Assembly (NCBI GenBank): GCA_947629985.1
Contig: CANRFV010000005.1
Span: forward strand, 62,001 to 126,000
Source of the DNA: an uncultured Clostridia bacterium
Lineage (GTDB): Bacteria > Bacillota > Clostridia > Christensenellales > CAG-314
Direction of reading: 5' to 3'
DNA: 64,000 bases
The translations under genes and the position numbers were made by a program. The notes under the pieces are model-generated. The model made no database searches and was not told where the DNA came from. It saw only the letters and a list, made by a program, of their open reading frames with translations. Shown piece by piece: positions 188-58,722 of the stretch (its first letter is position 1; the number at the start of each line of letters is the position of its first letter).

Positions 188-225
188 TGCAAAACGCCCC
201 TTGCGACAACTGTCGCTCGGAGCGT
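188..225 (+). terminator. Hairpin/terminator after the partial CDS
   Basis: AAAACGC...GCGTTTT inverted repeat with internal GCGACaactGTCGC, shortly after the stop codon. Confidence 0.5.
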
Positions 226-261
226 TTTCATTATTGCAAAAATACACGCAAAACATTGCCG

Positions 262-684
262 ACAGGCAAATAGTCGCCTATCGGCGAGTGAGATTTTGCA
301 GTAAAGCAAATAGTTGCCTTACTGCAAAGTGTTATTTCGCTACGCGAAGTGATAGTATTTGCTGACGCAAATAGTGCGACATTGCCCGTGGGCAAATATT
401 TTTCCGTCTACGACGGAAAAGTGAGATTTACGTGCAAGCGCGTAAGTGAGATTGTTTGCTGCGCAAACAGTTGCGGCTTTTTTTATTTGAAACATTTTTA
501 AGTAATAAAAAAATTACTGTCGAGAAGTACTTCCCGACAATAATAATTTTCAAATTATGTCAACCTTAACTTTGCCGTTAGGCAAAATAACACTTTTCCG
601 CTGAAAGCGGAAAAATAACACTCGCCGTAGGCGAATAACACTTACGCGCTTGCGCGTAAATAACACTGTTCGCCTAAGCGAACA
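262..684. repeat. Hairpin-cassette array, copy 1
   Basis: Serial 6-9 bp stem palindromes separated by GTGAGAT-type linkers (left arm) and ATAACAC linkers (right arm), around a central palindromic region; homologous to 58060-58502. Confidence 0.85.
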
Positions 685-35508: not shown

Positions 35509-35690
35509 CAGCCAAAAAACAACAAAAAATCCCGCCACCGACGTTAAAAGCGCATAACGTCGCTTAAACAGCACCTAAAAAAGGGTCTGTTCCGTTGCGG
35601 AACAAACCCTTTTGTTGTTGAAAATATTAAATTTTTGCTACCCTGTGCGGCAATTTTGCCTTGCTTGTGAGAGAATTTGATATTCGCCTG
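35509..35690. repeat. Left direct repeat: copy of the ppdK 3' end, terminator and downstream flank
   Basis: Near-identical to 41467-41540 plus 41741-41863; includes AAGGGTCTGTTCCGTTGCGGAACAAACCCTT. Confidence 0.88.
35640..35690 (-). pseudogene. ppdK C-terminal remnant
   Basis: Minus-strand translation ..VAQANIKFSHKQ versus PPDK end AAAQANIKFPRK*; stop codon lost. Confidence 0.75.
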
Positions 35691-35784
35691 TGCTACTGTA
35701 CTACTTACAAGGGGCGATGTAATCGTTACCTGTTATTTATAACTTTAATATTTAACTTCTCCCAATATGTTCGCCCTTGCTTTT

Positions 35785-36081
35785 TCAGATAATTCTTTTG
35801 CTGTTGCAATAAAGTTCTTTGGGTAAATTTTTGTAATTGATTTCAAAGAGTTCATGTGTTTCAAGATTTTCAAAGGCAATGGCATTATACACCTCGTATT
35901 CGGGAGAGTCCAATTTCTCACCGTTGTCCGTTTCAAACATTGTGTTGTACTTAGCTTCGATGACTTTGCTATCATAAATAAACTTGAATAAGTATTCTTC
36001 AACTGTACCATCACGCCACGCCTTGTTCAAAAAATGGACAAGAGTTATAAAGCCATTATTTTCCTTTTCAAATAGAATCAT
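35785..36081 (-). CDS. Small acidic protein, paralog of 38454-38750; candidate orphan immunity protein
   Basis: 98 aa MILFEKENNGFITL...NYKNLPKELYCNSKRII. Confidence 0.65.
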   Translation of the reverse strand: MILFEKENNGFITLVHFLNKAWRDGTVEEYLFKFIYDSKVIEAKYNTMFETDNGEKLDSPEYEVYNAIAFENLETHELFEINYKNLPKELYCNSKRII

Positions 36082-36136
36082 TTTTTCTCTCCTTTTGGTT
36101 TACTCGGTACTATGTGCGCAACGTTCCGTATAAACA

Positions 36137-37120
36137 TCAACCTAATAACCCGAATTTGTATCGAATGAAATATGATTTTATTTTATCCTTATTTAATAAC
36201 GGTTGTGGAAACGAAGGAGTATTTACGGCATCGGGAAAGAATTGCGGTTCGAGAGCAAAACCTTCGCGCGGAATGAGATCGTGCGTGCCGTTAAAACCAT
36301 GCAAAAAATTACCCGAATAGAATTGCAGACCGGGCATATCCGTAAATACTTCCATTTTTATGCCGCTTGATTCGTTGAAAGCCAATGCCGCACATTCGTT
36401 TGCGCTATGCCGCAACACAAAATTGTGGTCGTAACCGCTTGTGGGCTGCAACTGAACAGATTGTATATCTTTGCCTATTTTTTTAGCCTGCCGAAAGTCA
36501 AACGGCGTACCTTCTACCGCGGTAATCTCTCCCGTGGGAATTTGCCCCGCTCCCATCGGCGTGTAACTGTCGGCGTTTATTTGCAGATAGGTTTCGTCAA
36601 CTGTTTGTTCTGTGCCAAGGCGGAAATACGGATGGATTGTGGGCGCCCAAAACGTATCTTTGTCGCAGACGGCGGAAAAACGCACGGTAAGCGATGCTCC
36701 GTCCAAAACAAATTCCACGCGCAAAGTAAGATTTCCGGGGAATCCCTGATCGCCGTCGGGACTGTTCAAAGTCATTACAAGCGACGTTGTATCGAGCGTC
36801 TGCACCGAAAAAAGACGTTGATCGAAGCCGATTGCGCCGCCGTGCAGAGTGTTTTCGCCGTCATTTCGCGACAGCGAATAGGTAGTTCCGTTCAACGTAA
36901 ATTTGCCGTCCGCAATTCGGTTGGCAACACGCCCGATGACCGCTCCGCTGTAAGTATTGCTTTTGATACGGTTGCTTTGCGACGAAAATCCCAAGGTAAG
37001 TTCGCGCCCCGCAAACCGTATAGACCTTATACTTGCACCGCGATTGGATATTTCCACAGATAGATTATCGTTTTCTATAACGTAAATTTGTTGCGACTGA
37101 TTGGAATTTTTCGTTACCAT
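36137..37120 (-). CDS. galM: Aldose 1-epimerase (galactose mutarotase)
   Basis: NRIADGKFTLNGTTYSLSRNDGENTLHGG, HPYFRLG, SGYDHNFVL. Confidence 0.93.
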   Translation of the reverse strand: MVTKNSNQSQQIYVIENDNLSVEISNRGASIRSIRFAGRELTLGFSSQSNRIKSNTYSGAVIGRVANRIADGKFTLNGTTYSLSRNDGENTLHGGAIGFDQRLFSVQTLDTTSLVMTLNSPDGDQGFPGNLTLRVEFVLDGASLTVRFSAVCDKDTFWAPTIHPYFRLGTEQTVDETYLQINADSYTPMGAGQIPTGEITAVEGTPFDFRQAKKIGKDIQSVQLQPTSGYDHNFVLRHSANECAALAFNESSGIKMEVFTDMPGLQFYSGNFLHGFNGTHDLIPREGFALEPQFFPDAVNTPSFPQPLLNKDKIKSYFIRYKFGLLG

Positions 37121-37238
37121 ATTTCTTCACTTTTCTGCATAACATATCTGTCATTATAACAAAATTGAAATATAAGCACTAACTTGAAATTCGTTCCGAA
37201 CAATCCCGGAAAATTCGCGTACTAGCCGTTGTGCATCT

Positions 37239-37529
37239 TCAATCGTCCACCCACTCTATTTCTTGCTCCACTTCCCAAAAAGTTTTTCCGTCGAAAATTT
37301 TATCCGTCAGAAAGGCGTCAACGACTTCTTGACGTTGAACAACTGGTTTTGTTTGCGACCATGCGTAACCGATATAGCCTGGATCCGGTTCCATTTGATC
37401 GAGCATCAAACTGAATTGACCATTTTCTACCCAGCCTTGAATGAAGTATTTTACTCCATTGTACCTGAACCATCTCTCGTCGCCGTAGTATAATCCGTCT
37501 ACAAACTCATTAACATCACCATTTTTCAT
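37239..37529 (-). CDS. Candidate immunity protein, paralog of 38957-39232
   Basis: MKNGDVNEFVDGLYYGDERWFRYNGVKYFIQG...IFDGKTFWEVEQEIEWVDD. Confidence 0.65.
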   Translation of the reverse strand: MKNGDVNEFVDGLYYGDERWFRYNGVKYFIQGWVENGQFSLMLDQMEPDPGYIGYAWSQTKPVVQRQEVVDAFLTDKIFDGKTFWEVEQEIEWVDD

Positions 37530-37555
37530 CGTTTTGGCACTCCCTTGAAATATTT

Positions 37556-37888
37556 TTATCCAAACAGTACTTCGATGTCGTTTTCGATTTCATAAATCGT
37601 TTTGCCGTTGAAAATCTTTGCCTTCTCAAAAGCGGCAACGCATTCATTCCTATTTTTTGAAGTATGTACAAACAGCACTTTGGGCTCTTCAGAAATTATG
37701 GTAACCTGCAAAGTGTACAGTTCGTCTACTTCATCAACAAACCCCGATACGATATATTTTATACCATGATATGATATTTCTTTTTCGGGATTGTAATATA
37801 GATTGTCAATAAATTCACTTAGTGAATTCCCTATCATATCAATGCACTCTTTTGAAATAGTTTTATAATATTCGGACAGATCTGCCAA
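37556..37888 (-). CDS. Third, divergent member of the same candidate immunity family
   Basis: LSEFIDNLYYNPEKEISYHGIKYIVSGF...KIFNGKTIYEIENDIEVLFG. Confidence 0.6.
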   Translation of the reverse strand: MADLSEYYKTISKECIDMIGNSLSEFIDNLYYNPEKEISYHGIKYIVSGFVDEVDELYTLQVTIISEEPKVLFVHTSKNRNECVAAFEKAKIFNGKTIYEIENDIEVLFG

Positions 37889-38426
37889 TTGTTACATTCC
37901 ACTCCCCATCATTGTTCCAAAGACTCAAATCAGACAATACAGGGCAAATATTCTCCATGTCTTTGTCGATATTGACATATATCGCTTCATCAAACCACAC
38001 ATGACTTTTGGAAAAGGTATACGCATGCTTTTCCGTTCTTATCACTACCGCCATATCGATAATAATATCTATACCGTGTTCAACGCCTTTTATTGTATCG
38101 GAAATAATTTCAACGTCTGTTACAATTTCGTTGATCTCACGCTTTTTCACGGCAGCGTTGACAATCCCCGGTGAAAACGGCAATTCGGGATTACTTATGC
38201 TACATGTAAATTTTGACGCTTCTACGTACGGCACGTCGTCATTTTCAAACATGGCAATCTCTTCTTCTTCGTTTTTAAGCAATATAGCAGTGTTATCAAA
38301 AATTAAACGCGCTGTGCCATAAGACTGTCCTTCCACAGAAGAATCCATTTCAAAAGACAAAAACTGCTTGCCAACAATGCTTTGGAGCATTTGTATCATA
38401 TTTTCATCAAATTGCCATCTCGTCAT
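37863..38426 (-). CDS. Hypothetical protein
   Basis: 187 aa MTRWQFDENMIQMLQSIVGKQF; overlaps the downstream gene start. Confidence 0.55.
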   Translation of the reverse strand: MTRWQFDENMIQMLQSIVGKQFLSFEMDSSVEGQSYGTARLIFDNTAILLKNEEEEIAMFENDDVPYVEASKFTCSISNPELPFSPGIVNAAVKKREINEIVTDVEIISDTIKGVEHGIDIIIDMAVVIRTEKHAYTFSKSHVWFDEAIYVNIDKDMENICPVLSDLSLWNNDGEWNVTIGRSVRIL

Positions 38427-38453
38427 TTCTCCCCCTATATTATCCCTGCTTTT

Positions 38454-38750
38454 TCAGATAATTCTTTTTCCGTTGCAATACAGTTCTTTGGGTAAATTTT
38501 TGTAATTAATGTCTATATATTCGTGTGTTTCGATATTTTCAAACAATATAACATTGAATTCCTCATATTCGGGAGTATCCAATTCTTCACCATTATCTGA
38601 CTCAAACATTGTAACATATTTAGTTTCGAACACTTTGTCGTTATACACAAACCTGAATATCGCCGTTTTGTTTTGCTTTTTATCATAAAGCTCCTCGATA
38701 CAATCCAATATTGTTGTAAAACCATTGCGTTCTTTTTCAAAGATAATCAT
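38454..38750 (-). CDS. Small acidic protein, paralog of 35785-36081
   Basis: 98 aa MIIFEKERNGFTTI...NYKNLPKELYCNGKRII. Confidence 0.65.
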   Translation of the reverse strand: MIIFEKERNGFTTILDCIEELYDKKQNKTAIFRFVYNDKVFETKYVTMFESDNGEELDTPEYEEFNVILFENIETHEYIDINYKNLPKELYCNGKRII

Positions 38751-38760
38751 ATTCTACCTC

Positions 38761-38955
38761 CTAATCATTCGGTCGCGATGGAACAATATGCGCGCCAGAT
38801 TTTGAATAATGTATAATACCCCAAGTCGTAAGAATTTTCTCGCCTGTTTTGGGATTTACAAGATATCCAATAACTTTTCCGAAATTTACTCGCTCTCTAT
38901 TTTCACCGGCGGGCGTCCCTGTTCCTGAAAATTTACGCACAAGTTGCTGTGCATC
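38761..38955 (-). pseudogene. Orphan polymorphic-toxin C-terminal fragment (type-50-like)
   Basis: Minus-strand frame without ATG: WTIEDAQQLVRKFSGTGTPAGENRERVNFGKVIGYLVNPKTGEKILTTWGIIHYSKSGAHIVPSRPND*. Confidence 0.65.
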
Positions 38956-38956
38956 T

Positions 38957-39232
38957 TCAATCGTCCACCCACTCTATTTCTTGCTCCACTTCCCAAAAAG
39001 TTTTGCCGTCGAAGATGGGCGCTTGTAGGAATTTATCTACACAGAAACGACCGATTTCACTCACTCCATCCCAAACGCAATCGCTCTTCGGTTCCCATCT
39101 GTAAAGCAACAAATGATTTTTATTGTCATAGGATAAGCCTTCAATAAAAAATTTTTGACCACGGTAAAGAAAAATCCTTTCATCGCCGTGATAAAGTCCG
39201 TCTACAAACTCACTCACATCACCATTTTTCAT
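38957..39232 (-). CDS. Candidate immunity protein coupled to the upstream toxin-like gene
   Basis: Start overlaps stop of 39229-39606; MKNGDVSEFVDGLYHGDERIF...EQEIEWVDD. Confidence 0.65.
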   Translation of the reverse strand: MKNGDVSEFVDGLYHGDERIFLYRGQKFFIEGLSYDNKNHLLLYRWEPKSDCVWDGVSEIGRFCVDKFLQAPIFDGKTFWEVEQEIEWVDD

Positions 39233-39606
39233 TGTTTTGGTACTCCTTTGAAATATTTTTTATATTTTATATACTCTTCATCAGTTAGAAGTCGAGAAGG
39301 TCTTTCGGAAAAGTCGTCTCTCTGATATTCATGAATATGCAAAACCGGAGAAAAATTTCCCGTTAATTTCGGCTCAGGGTGATATGCAATCTCTGCAACA
39401 AGGTAGTGTTCCTTATCATAAATCCGCATTTCGTGGAAGGTTCCATCTGGCTTCAACTTAATATATGCGTTGCTCGAATGTGCCTCTTCCGGTAAAGAGT
39501 GTTTGCCATTTATGCCCCGCAGCACCTTGACCCCTTCGATTTTGCCAACTGTTTCGTATGTGTATGCCACATTCTTTCCGCTTGCAAATGTTCCGCGTCC
39601 GCCCAT
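39229..39606 (-). CDS. Phage/polymorphic-toxin-type protein (MGGRG...KIEGVKVL...SSNAYIKLKPDGTFHEMRIYD family)
   Basis: 125 aa; PEEAHSSNAYIKLKPDGTFHEMRIYDKEHYLVAEIAYHPEPKLT...VLHIHEY. Confidence 0.65.
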   Translation of the reverse strand: MGGRGTFASGKNVAYTYETVGKIEGVKVLRGINGKHSLPEEAHSSNAYIKLKPDGTFHEMRIYDKEHYLVAEIAYHPEPKLTGNFSPVLHIHEYQRDDFSERPSRLLTDEEYIKYKKYFKGVPKQ

Positions 39607-39607
39607 A

Positions 39608-40225
39608 TTATCTCACCACCTTTCTCGAAGCGAGATAATCTACGCTTATGATATTGCCGCGCATTTCCTTGAACGGTGTTCCAAAGCAGATGATGGCGGA
39701 AGGAGATAACTTTTCAAGCATGGCGTCATAACCACGCATAAAGTTAAGTCTATCCTTTTTGCAGCCTATCATGCCAACCGCAACAACCGAATTTTGCTCT
39801 ATTCCGTCAAAACAAAATTCATAGGAAATTGCAAGTCCCCAACTTACCGTTGGGTAAACTGTAAGTCCTTGTGCTTGCCAATAGGCGCCGCACCAACGGT
39901 TTTTGGCAACATTCTCTAACTGTCGCCAAAGCGGCATATCCGCATAGAGCGAATAATCGGGAGTCAAGAGAAACTTGTATAGAGAATATCTTGCAAGCGT
40001 TTTTTCCGGATGGTCATAGATATGTTCGAACCTATAATCGTCCACAAAGAAATGTACGCCACAATCTCGATACTTTGTCTCCTGTGATTTCGTGTCGGAA
40101 CAGGCGATCAATTTTACATCATTGCACAGCGGCTGAGATTTTACGATCGGAATGTTCCATTTCCCTGCGCATTGGTATTCGCTACGCAGAAAACTTTGCT
40201 TTAATCTTACAATTTTTGAGTGCAT
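39608..40225 (-). CDS. DUF4417 domain protein
   Basis: NRWCGAYWQAQGLTVYPTVSWGLAISYEFCFDGIEQNSVVAVGMIG. Confidence 0.8.
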   Translation of the reverse strand: MHSKIVRLKQSFLRSEYQCAGKWNIPIVKSQPLCNDVKLIACSDTKSQETKYRDCGVHFFVDDYRFEHIYDHPEKTLARYSLYKFLLTPDYSLYADMPLWRQLENVAKNRWCGAYWQAQGLTVYPTVSWGLAISYEFCFDGIEQNSVVAVGMIGCKKDRLNFMRGYDAMLEKLSPSAIICFGTPFKEMRGNIISVDYLASRKVVR

Positions 40226-40392
40226 TTTGCACCTCCTTAAAATAATGTCAACCTTTGGTTGCCGTCAAAATATTGACATAAAAGACGGGAGATGCTATAA
40301 TGCTATATAGAGTTGAGTGCAATAGCATTCATCCCGAATGGCGTGTAAAAGTTGCCGGTAACAACTTTTATGCGCTGTTCTTTTATGTAATT

Positions 40393-40917
40393 TCAGTATC
40401 TTTTTCTTTGTTGAGCAGAAAGCAATGAAACATTGTACCGCTTACATATTTCGTCTACGCTCATATTTTTTGTCTCTTCGTAGGGCATCATTATCTCGCC
40501 GCACAATGCTTTCGCCTGCCACTCGGCACTATACATCGCCTCGATTGTGTTATTGGAAAAACTACGTTCGAGCCTTGGAGTATAACCCAACTTGTACATA
40601 AAAACGTGGCACATTTCATGCATAATGTGATTGCGGTAACCGCCTGTTTGGTTATAATAGGCTCCGTTATAGACGCACGCCTTTATTTTTATAGTAAAAT
40701 TGCCGTCGTTGTCCAATTCCGTAACGGCGGGGACGTTGTGATCCAATTCGTTATCTTCGACAATATCGTAAGTAACATTTCCCATTTTCTTGCAAAACGG
40801 ATCCAACAAGTCAACAACAGGTATACTGTTCTGACGAGAAATGTCAAACAAATCGAAAAATGCATCCGCTATCTCTCTGATACCTATTCGAGAAATTGGT
40901 TTTGTAAAGTAATCCAT
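40393..40917 (-). CDS. ImmA/IrrE-family metallo-endopeptidase
   Basis: HIMHEMCHVFMYKLGY HExxH; downstream of XRE regulator. Confidence 0.88.
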   Translation of the reverse strand: MDYFTKPISRIGIREIADAFFDLFDISRQNSIPVVDLLDPFCKKMGNVTYDIVEDNELDHNVPAVTELDNDGNFTIKIKACVYNGAYYNQTGGYRNHIMHEMCHVFMYKLGYTPRLERSFSNNTIEAMYSAEWQAKALCGEIMMPYEETKNMSVDEICKRYNVSLLSAQQRKRY

Positions 40918-40919
40918 TA

Positions 40920-41285
40920 TTAACTGTCAACCTTCTTGTTAAATAATTCTATAAGGGCGTTTGCCGTTTCTTCGTCGAGATCGTTAAACGATCTTTGAAA
41001 TTGAATGGCGACGCGCCGCTGAAACTCTTTGGCATTACTCAAATTAAATTTTATTTGGGTTTTAGATTCTTCTATTGCCTGTGCCAACTCGTTCCGTTCC
41101 CCTTCGTTCAAATTGTAATGCTTTACCAAAATATCAAACCATTCATCCGGAACATTCTTTTTACCGTTTTCTACCGCAGATACAAAAGGAACCGATACAC
41201 TTAATAATTCCGCCGTATTAGCCATAACTTCATGATTCTTAATTCTTTCAATACGCATAAATTCACCAAACCTTGTGTATGACAT
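40920..41285 (-). CDS. XRE-family HTH regulator
   Basis: MSYTRFGEFMRIERIKNHEVMANTAELLSVSVPFVSAVENGKKNVPDEW. Confidence 0.85.
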   Translation of the reverse strand: MSYTRFGEFMRIERIKNHEVMANTAELLSVSVPFVSAVENGKKNVPDEWFDILVKHYNLNEGERNELAQAIEESKTQIKFNLSNAKEFQRRVAIQFQRSFNDLDEETANALIELFNKKVDS

Positions 41286-41466
41286 CTTCTTTTCTCCTTT
41301 ATTTTTACACATTGTATCGCAACTTAACAAATTTGTCAATAAAAAATTTAATCTTTTTTTGGTTAATTTAACATTATTTTTAATTTGACAATCAATTCGG
41401 GAAATTTGGGCAGGACAGTTACCCCGAAAGGTATCCGAGCATAACTAATAAACTTAAAAACAACAT

Positions 41467-41863
41467 TAGCCAAACAACAAAAAACCCCACCGCCGACGTT
41501 AAAAGCGTATATCGCCGCCTAAACAGCGCCTAAAAGTCGCTTAAATAATGCCGAAAAGGGTATAACGTCGCTTAAACAGCCCCCCCCCAAAAAAAACACG
41601 TGGCTCCACTGAAATAACGCAAAAAAACAATAATAATAAACGCTTAAAAAATACATATCGTCGTCTAAACAGTACCTATAAAACACCTAACGCGCTGTAA
41701 CAGTGCCCCCAAAAAACACGTGGCGCCGCTTAAATAACGCAAAAAGGGTCTGTTCCGTTGCGGAACAAACCCTTTTGTTGTTGCAAACTATTAAATTTTT
41801 GCTATCCTATGCGGCAATTTTGCCTTACTTGCGGGGGAATTTGATATTCGCTTGTGCCGCTGC
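41467..41863. repeat. Right direct repeat at the ppdK 3' end, with ~200 bp of internal short repeats
   Basis: Matches 35509-35690; interior has several RTCGCYTAAACAG and two CCCCCAAAAAA..ACACGTGGC..AAATAACGC units. Confidence 0.85.
41741..41776 (-). terminator. Terminator of ppdK
   Basis: AAAAGGGTTTGTTCCGcaaCGGAACAGACCCTTTTT on the minus strand. Confidence 0.88.
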
Positions 41864-45115: not shown

Positions 45116-45811
45116 GACAAAAACAAGTACACAAAAAAGTTCTGCCGCATACGTGCGGCGCAATACGGCGTCCAACTCCACCCGTCTCGGAACATTTACG
45201 CGCAACAAACTCCCCAACCCGTTGGCAATGCTCGTTTTTCTTAACTTAATTTGCTTGTATCTCTGCGGCAGAAAGCGGGAGATTTGACGCCGATAACTCC
45301 ACCGCTAAAAACAACCTTTTGTGTTTTATACACATAATTTGACACAATATGTTGTGTTTACATAAATTTACCCCAATTTTACCCCAAATCGGATTTTTGT
45401 TGAGTGTAATACAAATGGCTGTTGAAAGCGAACGAAATTCGCCTGCAACAGCCCTTTTATTGCAATTCCGTGTTATGATAGCGACCTGTGGCGCACACAA
45501 AGCAACTGCGCCGTTAATGCACAATCGCCAAATAGTACAAAAATTTTTAATTAAAGTTCAACCTTGAAAACTACAAAAACAAGAGTATCTCCTTGCAAAA
45601 TAAACGGAAACAAGCGAATACAAGGAGCAAGCAGTCCCAATTAAACCCAACCTTGTATTCCCGCTGAGCGAGTGTATCCACTGCAAAATAATCTGCAACA
45701 AGTATGCCGCATATAATCTTATTATTTGGACGCGAGTGCTGTTGCTATTCATAATATCAACAAACAAGTTTTTAATTAAGATACAACCTTATAAACCCTG
45801 AGAACAAGCGT

Positions 45812-45983
45812 ATCCCCTGCAAAATAATCTGCAACGAGCGCACACAGTGCGCGAAGCGAAGCCTTTTTGCAGGGGATATGCGCGTGTTTTCCGTTTTGAA
45901 TGCAATTGCACGAGCGCCACCACCATTTTTATTGCGGCATACGAAGCGAAGCCTTTTTGCAGGGGATATGCGAGCGGTATTGT
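45812..45983 (-). repeat. Terminal-inverted-repeat element (family B) 3' of uvrA
   Basis: GTATCCCCTGCAAAA...TTTTTGCAGGGGATATGC; homologous to the clpX-flanking copy. Confidence 0.78.
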
Positions 45984-58059: not shown

Positions 58060-58502
58060 AAGTGAGATTTTTCCGCCGTTGGCGGAAAAGTGAGATTTGT
58101 TCGCATTCGCGAACAGTAATATTATTCGCTGTCGCGAATAGTGCAACATTGCCCTTGGGCAAATATTGTTCGCTGACGCGAACAGTGAGATTTTTCCGCC
58201 GTTGGCGGAAAAGTGAGATTTACGCGCAAGCGCGTAAGTGAGATTGTTTGCTTGCGCAAACAGTTGCGGCGTTTTTTATTTGAAACTATTTTAAGCAATA
58301 AAAAAATAATTGCCGAAGAATAATCTCTTTCGGCAATAATATTTTTCAAATAAAGTCAACCTTAACTTTGCCGATAGGCAAAATAACACTTTTCCGTCGC
58401 AGACGGAAAAATATAACTGTTTGCGTAGCAAACAATACCACTCGCCGCAGGCGAATAACACTGTTTACGAAGTAAACACTATCACTGTTCGCGTAAGCGA
58501 AC
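58060..58502. repeat. Hairpin-cassette array, copy 2 (lon-clpX intergenic)
   Basis: Same linkers, same centre and same module vocabulary as 262-684, with cassettes gained or lost. Confidence 0.87.
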
Positions 58503-58722
58503 ACTCGGAGCGAGTGTATCCCCCGCAAAATAATCTGCAACGAGTATGCCGCGCAAAATATTATTTTTTATAGCGCGAGTGCTGTTGCAATTCAAAACAA
58601 TCTGCAACAAGTGTGCCGCACCTTGTTAGGTGCGGCACACGAAGTGAAGCCGTTTTGAATGCAATATCTACCATTCCCTGCGGTATACGCAGTGAAGCCT
58701 TTTTGCGGGGGATATGCGAGCG
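58503..58722 (-). repeat. Terminal-inverted-repeat element (family B) 3' of clpX
   Basis: GTATCCCCCGCAAAA...TTTTTGCGGGGGATATGC; ends about 2 bp from the clpX stop. Confidence 0.78.

Follow-up and report, generated by a model that had tools for sequence, protein, structure and literature searches.

The window analysed here, a stretch of 64,000 nucleotides, contains near its left end a mosaic of short hairpins joined by 7-nt linkers, and a second copy of the same mosaic lies far to the right. The locus raises the question of what such an array is, which part of it spreads as a unit, and whether it acts as DNA or as RNA.

Layout of the hairpin arrays in the window

By direct sequence reading, copy 1 is composed of two inverted arms around a core and extends from 256 to 684. 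The initial annotation had placed it at 262–684; its end is retained, and its start is moved to about 256. The hairpins are mostly perfect and separated by 7-nt linkers, with exceptions at 295–328 and 428–445. The CAC strand is the minus strand in the left arm and the plus strand in the right arm.

194–228, plus strand: terminator-like but imperfect hairpin beyond the array, following the upstream gene; read by eye and not listed by the terminator scan
256–469, plus strand: left arm of copy 1, nine hairpins with linkers GTGAGAT, GTGTTAT and GTGATAG
256–269: hairpin TTGCCgacaGGCAA, then atag
274–287: hairpin TCGCCtatcGGCGA, then gtgagat
295–328: 34-nt hairpin with one mismatched pair, then gtgttat
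336–348: hairpin TTCGCtacGCGAA, then gtgatag
356–373: hairpin TATTTGCtgacGCAAATA, then gtgcgaca
382–395: hairpin TTGCCCgtGGGCAA, inside a linker (GTGCGACA..ATAT), then atat
400–420: hairpin TTTTCCGTCtacGACGGAAAA, then gtgagat
428–445: hairpin TTACGTGCaaGCGCGTAA with one mismatched pair (G.T), then gtgagat
453–469: hairpin TGTTTGCtgcGCAAACA, adjoining the core
458–477, plus strand: terminator-like site at the core edge (terminator scan), then TTTTTTTATT
470–570: core between the arms, about 100 nt, with GTTGCGGC..TTTGAAAC, a terminator hairpin and GTCAACCTTAAC
544–513, minus strand: terminator-like site in the core (terminator scan), 14 pairs, then TTTTTTATTA
571–684, minus strand: right arm of copy 1, five hairpins with linkers ATAACAC
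571–586: hairpin TTTGCCgttaGGCAAA, then ataacac
594–614: hairpin TTTTCCGCTgaaAGCGGAAAA, right-arm slot 2 with three discrete alleles genome-wide, then ataacac
622–634: hairpin TCGCCgtaGGCGA, then ataacac
642–659: hairpin TTACGCGCttGCGCGTAA, without counterpart in the right arm of copy 2, then ataacac
667–684: hairpin TGTTCGCctaaGCGAACA, end of the right arm
58069–58503, plus strand: copy 2, both arms and core, on the same plan as copy 1

The core recurs in copy 2 as a direct repeat. Copy 2 contains, between its TTGCCC and TTTTCCG hairpins, the hairpin TGTTCGCtgacGCGAACA, which copy 1 lacks. The right arm of copy 1 carries the hairpin TTACGCGC..GCGCGTAA, which is missing from copy 2, and that of copy 2 has two extra hairpins, TGTTTGCgtaGCAAACA and TGTTTACgaaGTAAACA. 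The cassette gains and losses claimed in the initial annotation are all confirmed when the two copies are compared, and the left-arm linker GTGTTAT is, as it had stated, the reverse complement of ATAACAC. The TTGCCCgtGGGCAA unit splits the linkers GTG^ATAT and GTT^ATAT elsewhere in the genome, and a unit CAACATTGCC..GGCAA interrupts linkers GTG^ATAT in the parsed genome copies.

Other repeats are also found in the window. A mosaic of dispersed repeats (CCCGCCTTGGCGGG, CCGCAAACTACGGACCTGTGCCGAAGTTTGCG and GCAACGGGCAGTTGC), common to many other arrays of the genome, is located to the right of copy 1 at 685–1000. Other dispersed modules, which often abut arrays here, occupy 45648–45972 and 58490–58718 (GAGCGAGTGTATCC..CTGCAAAATAATCTGCAAC and CGAAGCGAAGCCTTTTTGCAGGGGATATGCG). 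An imperfect direct-repeat cluster at 35546–41862 (216, 125, 95 and 93 nt; families D1, D2, D6, D7 and D10) possibly represents duplicated genes or elements.

Dispersal of arrays and exchange of hairpins

A search of the window genome (G000, 2.37 Mb) against itself yields 96 matched pieces, grouped by hand into about 34 array copies of about 400 bp; 32 further places besides the window copies were extracted and parsed. A three-linker pattern with hairpin-sized gaps gives 63 matches in G000, and the reversed control pattern gives none across all 61 genomes searched. Outward parsing of all arms produces ordered slots occupied by discrete hairpin alleles. The slot TTTTCCG-N7-CGGAAAA is filled by CTGAAAG (TTTTCCGCTgaaAGCGGAAAA, 13 cases), CCAACGG (TTTTCCGCCaacGGCGGAAAA, 11) or TCGCAGA (TTTTCCGTCgcaGACGGAAAA, 9), besides three singletons, and no stem/loop mixtures between these alleles occur across the roughly 34 copies. 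Exactly one hairpin with its linker is lost from the right arm of array L025, and one is gained in copy 2. The hairpin type and its adjacent linker share mutual information of 1.07 and 0.98 bits, with maxima of 0.73 and 0.74 in 2000 shuffles. Furthermore, in arrays of different species with common right flanks, the slots differ by complete hairpin replacement or by compensated pairs. Compared cassette by cassette, the roughly 34 genomic copies thus differ by whole hairpins and not by point drift.

The initial annotation had taken whole hairpins as the exchangeable unit. The discrete alleles and whole-hairpin differences bear this out, but the hairpins do not behave as free cassettes: solitary TTTTYCG hairpins are absent, all 50 among the matches listed (52 occur in the genome) lying inside arrays, and the slots keep a strong order across arrays. 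It follows that the array or its host element spreads, and that hairpins are exchanged between arrays. As judged from sequence, a hairpin with its linker is the apparent unit of difference and the array the apparent unit of dispersal. G000 is larger than its 24 congeners (1.2–1.7 Mb) and has the most linker-pattern matches among them; repeat expansion may explain part of its larger genome.

All 24 arrays of G000 whose setting could be judged are intergenic, and none is located inside an open reading frame. Of the array contexts in this genome, 14 are tandem, seven convergent, two divergent and one at an edge, compared with 33 tandem, two convergent and three divergent spacers in the window; the arrays are biased to gene 3′ ends relative to the window spacers. 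At C6:32058–32456, the spacer that separates an M3-type peptidase gene from a small gene convergent with it is occupied by an array. This convergent pair is conserved in 23 congeneric genomes, among which G000 alone has a spacer of 403 nt with nine linker-like motifs; the spacers of the other 22 measure 9–908 nt, contain at most three chance linker-like motifs, and in many cases consist of little beyond one terminator, e.g., AAAAAACGCACCGCAGCGGTGCGTTTTTTG. The array in this spacer is thus a gain specific to the window species.

Gut-1 matches, loop chemistry and terminator-loop elements

Both arms of copy 1 match the Rfam family Gut-1 (RF01706) in an E-value scan, on opposite strands. The left arm matches on the plus strand at 263–360 (34.0 bits) and the right arm on the minus strand at 582–668 (38.4 bits, E 6e-6), both under the gathering score, membership of RF01706 being set at a CM score of at least 50 bits. 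This threshold is passed at two places in G000, C6:27262–27346 (52.4 bits) and C5:43768–43857 (50.9 bits), and the gathering score is reached on both strands at locus L099. Weinberg et al. (2010) listed Gut-1 as an RNA with full confidence, found only in human gut sequence and of unknown function (PMC2864571); no earlier description of it as DNA was found in the literature searched.

Gut-1-like arrays exist in 67 of 394 genomes of the class and in 47 of 224 genera, and RF01706 exceeds its gathering score in 39 of the 394 genomes. The presence is patchy, also within one genus: among the congeners, G002, G009, G012 and G022 are carriers, and many others are not. Among the 61 relatives, the generic linker/gap pattern is found in G000, G045, G048, G052, G022 and G024, and in GTDB representatives it marks 118 stretches, nearly all from gut Clostridia or Oscillospiraceae MAGs. 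Matches outside the gut (Methylomonas, Shewanella, Kangiellaceae, Hodarchaeota and Oceanobacillus) are ascribed to chance, because no hairpins lie between their linkers. Carriage by phages is unsupported, as only L213 and L230 of 33 viral-contig pattern matches have hairpins. Where both arms are present, the GTG-arm precedes the CAC-arm, with one tandem exception; there (L201:4719–5212) the whole >>..<< array unit is tandemly repeated, an orientation of the arms seen in no other case. Among arrays selected independently, by Gut-1 score, several come after a terminator that lies immediately behind a tRNA gene. The Gut-1 arrays at L323–L329 and L335 are mostly situated directly behind tRNA genes and start with the terminator GAAAAAAGCAC..GTGCTTTTTTC and the linker AACGAAAT.

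Loops were counted on the CAC strand, in 285 distinct hairpins with flanking linkers. Triloops are GNA in 97 of 160 cases and TNC in one, tetraloops are GNNA in 94 of 125 cases and TNNC in none, and 265 of the 285 hairpins close the loop with 5′-C..G-3′. The loops d(cGNNAg), d(gCNNGc) and d(cCNNGg) were reportedly described by Nakano in 2002 as hyperstable DNA minihairpin loops. The third base of the GNNA loops is a purine in 45 and a pyrimidine in 49 cases, without a GNRA preference; hence, the loops do not reflect selection for RNA GNRA loops. GNA loops make extraordinarily stable DNA minihairpins, according to the part of PMC6479982 that cites Yoshizawa 1997. On the strand modelled for Gut-1, the loops are mainly UNC/UNNC. 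The CAC strand is also favoured by RNA energy parameters. The stems are almost all Watson–Crick without a clear G.U excess, and their mismatches (15 G.T versus 8 A.C) do not discriminate DNA from RNA. Together, the loop and strand data argue for DNA rather than expressed RNA, and the loops and perfect stems suggest that the arms would fold as single-stranded DNA.

An alignment of 17 arrays from ruminant-gut Clostridia places the array as the left part of an element, which measures 350–395 bp in the copies with both ends located. The element ends near GGCGTGATACTC and TCTCCGATAAGGACATCACCC, and the sequences outside these sharp ends are unrelated between copies. Within a single copy, the left and right flanks pair to form an intrinsic terminator, each supplying one half: the flank stem energy averages −20.7 kcal/mol in 15 true pairs and −7.7 kcal/mol in 210 mismatched pairs, none of which reaches the true median. 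Read by eye, the ends of the relatives' elements are GGCGTGAT..ATCACCC, with 3–4-nt repeats in several, and a second subfamily with different end hairpins has long perfect host stems at L129 and L136 and weaker ones elsewhere. At the rpsR terminator, an element is located in the loop in G061, and the hairpin is intact in seven other genomes. On the evidence of these alignments, the filled rpsR site against its seven empty orthologous sites, with sharp-ended copies in unrelated terminator loops, shows insertion. No earlier description of terminator-loop insertion was found in the literature searched.

In a flank pairing test across the copies of G000 itself, no host-terminator stem was found. 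The outer ends of these copies vary, the terminator at their centre is their own, and a target-site duplication is not readable for them; duplex energies of wide flanks do not discriminate, because such flanks contain array sequence in common. With a terminator of their own and without a flanking host stem, the G000 copies may be inserted by a chemistry different from that of the relatives' elements. The common architecture, linkers, loops and Gut-1 match nevertheless suggest that they are the same mobile element.

The right end of the relatives' elements is seen 33 times across nine ruminant-gut genomes with elements, followed by a GC-rich stretch and a T-run where the flank can be judged. 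Longer elements between host terminator halves contain promoter-like sequence, a conserved leader GGGGTATGGGCTTTGCCC..ACAAAGGCGAAACTGGCGATAAA, a gene and a terminator. The cargo includes a GNAT acetyltransferase, DUF3885, AAA_18 with DUF559 and an HExxH-motif protein; no Pfam family matches two of the cargo proteins. At L298, the hairpin array forms the left end with the gene inside. Cassettes that share their promoter, leader and terminator and have TCTCCGMTAAGRACAWCRC as their end are present at L285, L288, L289, L298, L303 and L307 (genomes G061–G067), and most are flanked by both halves of the host terminator; to judge by their sequences, they look like a mobile gene-cassette system. The leader GGGGTATGGGCTTTGCCCGAAGCCTTTGTAATACAAAGGCGAAACTGGCGATAAA (L285, about 880–935, and many GTDB loci) is located before cargo genes and, reversed, beside gene-less arrays; scans of the loci with it reported no Rfam family there.

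Proposed explanation and known systems

We consider it reasonably probable that a dispersed, non-autonomous DNA element has the array as its structured portion, that it belongs with the "Gut-1 RNA" elements, and that it is recognised as a folded single strand and directed to a hairpin or terminator target. The elements most likely rank among the short, mobile interspersed elements; their known face is the Gut-1 family. When single-stranded, on the lagging strand or in an extruded cruciform, the arms would fold into rows of very stable hairpins. A putative trans-acting recombinase would bind these rows and join the element to a folded target hairpin, either a terminator or an array already containing one. 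Template switching, or recombination at the 7-nt linkers, would exchange hairpins between arrays, and the stems would stay perfect through intrastrand template switching. Insertion at gene 3′ ends would do little harm, because the terminator survives or the element supplies one.

A recombinase or transposase was not found in or linked to the elements, and the longer elements found carry other genes; the initial annotation had proposed looking for a linked recombinase. Of 15 array-carrying genomes, 9 lack Y1_Tnp, the array-rich G045, G048 and G052 among them, and many non-carriers have it, so a Y1/RAYT transposase is excluded as the general driver. Group IIC introns, which also target terminators, were considered, and no intron was seen.

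That the arms are transcribed and act as a structured noncoding RNA, with hairpins of RNA, has a small chance of being correct. The RNA listing of Gut-1 by Rfam and Weinberg et al., the covariation of the stems and the greater stability of the CAC strand under RNA parameters agree with it. However, the Gut-1 matches are opposite-stranded in the two arms of one element, so that any transcript holds one arm in each sense, and dozens of copies per genome with a patchy presence do not suit an RNA gene. The unbiased GNNA loops, the UNC/UNNC loops on the modelled strand and the Watson–Crick stems likewise speak against it. It is unlikely that the arrays are domesticated transcription punctuation, i.e., gene insulators of a bidirectional terminator and hairpins, kept for this insulation and diversified by ordinary recombination without mobility. 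Such a role would fit the consistently intergenic position, the convergent bias, the terminator in or beside the array and the G000 array in a spacer where congeners have a terminator; yet neither strand of the T..A hairpins has a U-tract, so that these are not terminators themselves, and the sharp-ended copies in unrelated terminator loops and the filled and empty orthologous sites show insertion. The presence within a genus is also patchy.

Spread as REP/BIME-like elements by an IS200/IS605-type (RAYT, Y1) transposase seems quite improbable. Small hairpins, mosaic arrays, inverted orientations and an intergenic 3′ location are common to both, and G000 itself has four Y1 transposase matches, but the distribution of Y1_Tnp does not follow the arrays. 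Moreover, REPs bear a GTAG (or CGTC) tag (PMC3733652), which is absent from the hairpin foot here; the constant part is instead the linker, GTGNNAT or ATNNCAC in nearly all copies read, and no conserved hairpin sequence is repeated genome-wide. Integron-like cassettes, in which the hairpins would be attC-like sites for an integron-type tyrosine recombinase, are very improbable. Folded single-stranded DNA and same-ended cassettes with small unrelated genes recall integrons, but the cassettes here are dispersed in terminators and not lined up in one array behind an integrase. In addition, attC sites have bulged extrahelical bases and R/L boxes, which the present hairpins, short and perfect, would lack.

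Beyond the folded-DNA element itself, it is conceivable, though we hold this only tentatively, that the elements constitute a new class of mobile DNA in gut Clostridia, in which folded single strands present interchangeable hyperstable hairpins as putative binding sites, insertion occurs in terminator loops and small gene cassettes are moved. "Gut-1 RNA" would then be one arm, and the window genome a divergent branch with its own terminator. The arrays give a candidate RNA family without function since 2010 a testable identity, and they point to the terminator loop as a little-noticed insertion niche, in which gene cassettes that move could build up while doing little harm. Should the folded single strand be read by a trans-acting enzyme, uncultured gut bacteria would have a new system of hairpin-guided recombination.

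Compared with known systems, the nearest entry is Gut-1, catalogued as a 77-nt candidate RNA from human-gut metagenomes only, with three hairpins and GUGAAAU linkers. The array here has GTGAGAT, GTGTTAT or GTGATAT linkers, and the Gut-1 match corresponds to one of the two arms in a larger inverted array of DNA that is multi-copy, occurs on both strands and is part of insertion elements. REP, BIME and REPIN sequences likewise consist of short hairpins between genes, clustered as mosaics at gene 3′ ends, and recognition of single-stranded DNA hairpins has been proposed for them. In contrast, the arrays lack the GTAG tag, most carriers lack Y1, and constant linkers with swapped hairpins are the reverse of the REP arrangement. 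Integron cassettes and attC sites also combine mobile small genes with folded-DNA sites, an analogy of logic; the present cassettes are dispersed in terminators, have their own promoters and a different site architecture, and no integrase was located.

Pneumococcal BOX (boxA-boxB(n)-boxC) is a modular interspersed repeat of Firmicutes in which internal modules are gained and lost from copy to copy (PMC3049150), as they are in the arrays. By described architecture, the only basis of this comparison, BOX has one boxB type and TIR similarity to an IS, whereas the arrays combine at least ten types of hairpin with constant linkers and show insertion in terminator loops. MITEs, SPRITE among them, are likewise short, gene-less and intergenic with a terminator-like hairpin, and the ends of the relatives' elements are defined, with short duplications likely; as in MITEs, short gene-less elements (350–395 bp in the relatives, about 400 bp in G000) are found in many copies at unrelated sites. 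Unlike SPRITE and MITEs, the relatives' elements target specifically the loops of intrinsic terminators, contain an internal array of DNA hairpins with hyperstable loops and exist in gene-carrying versions with the same ends.
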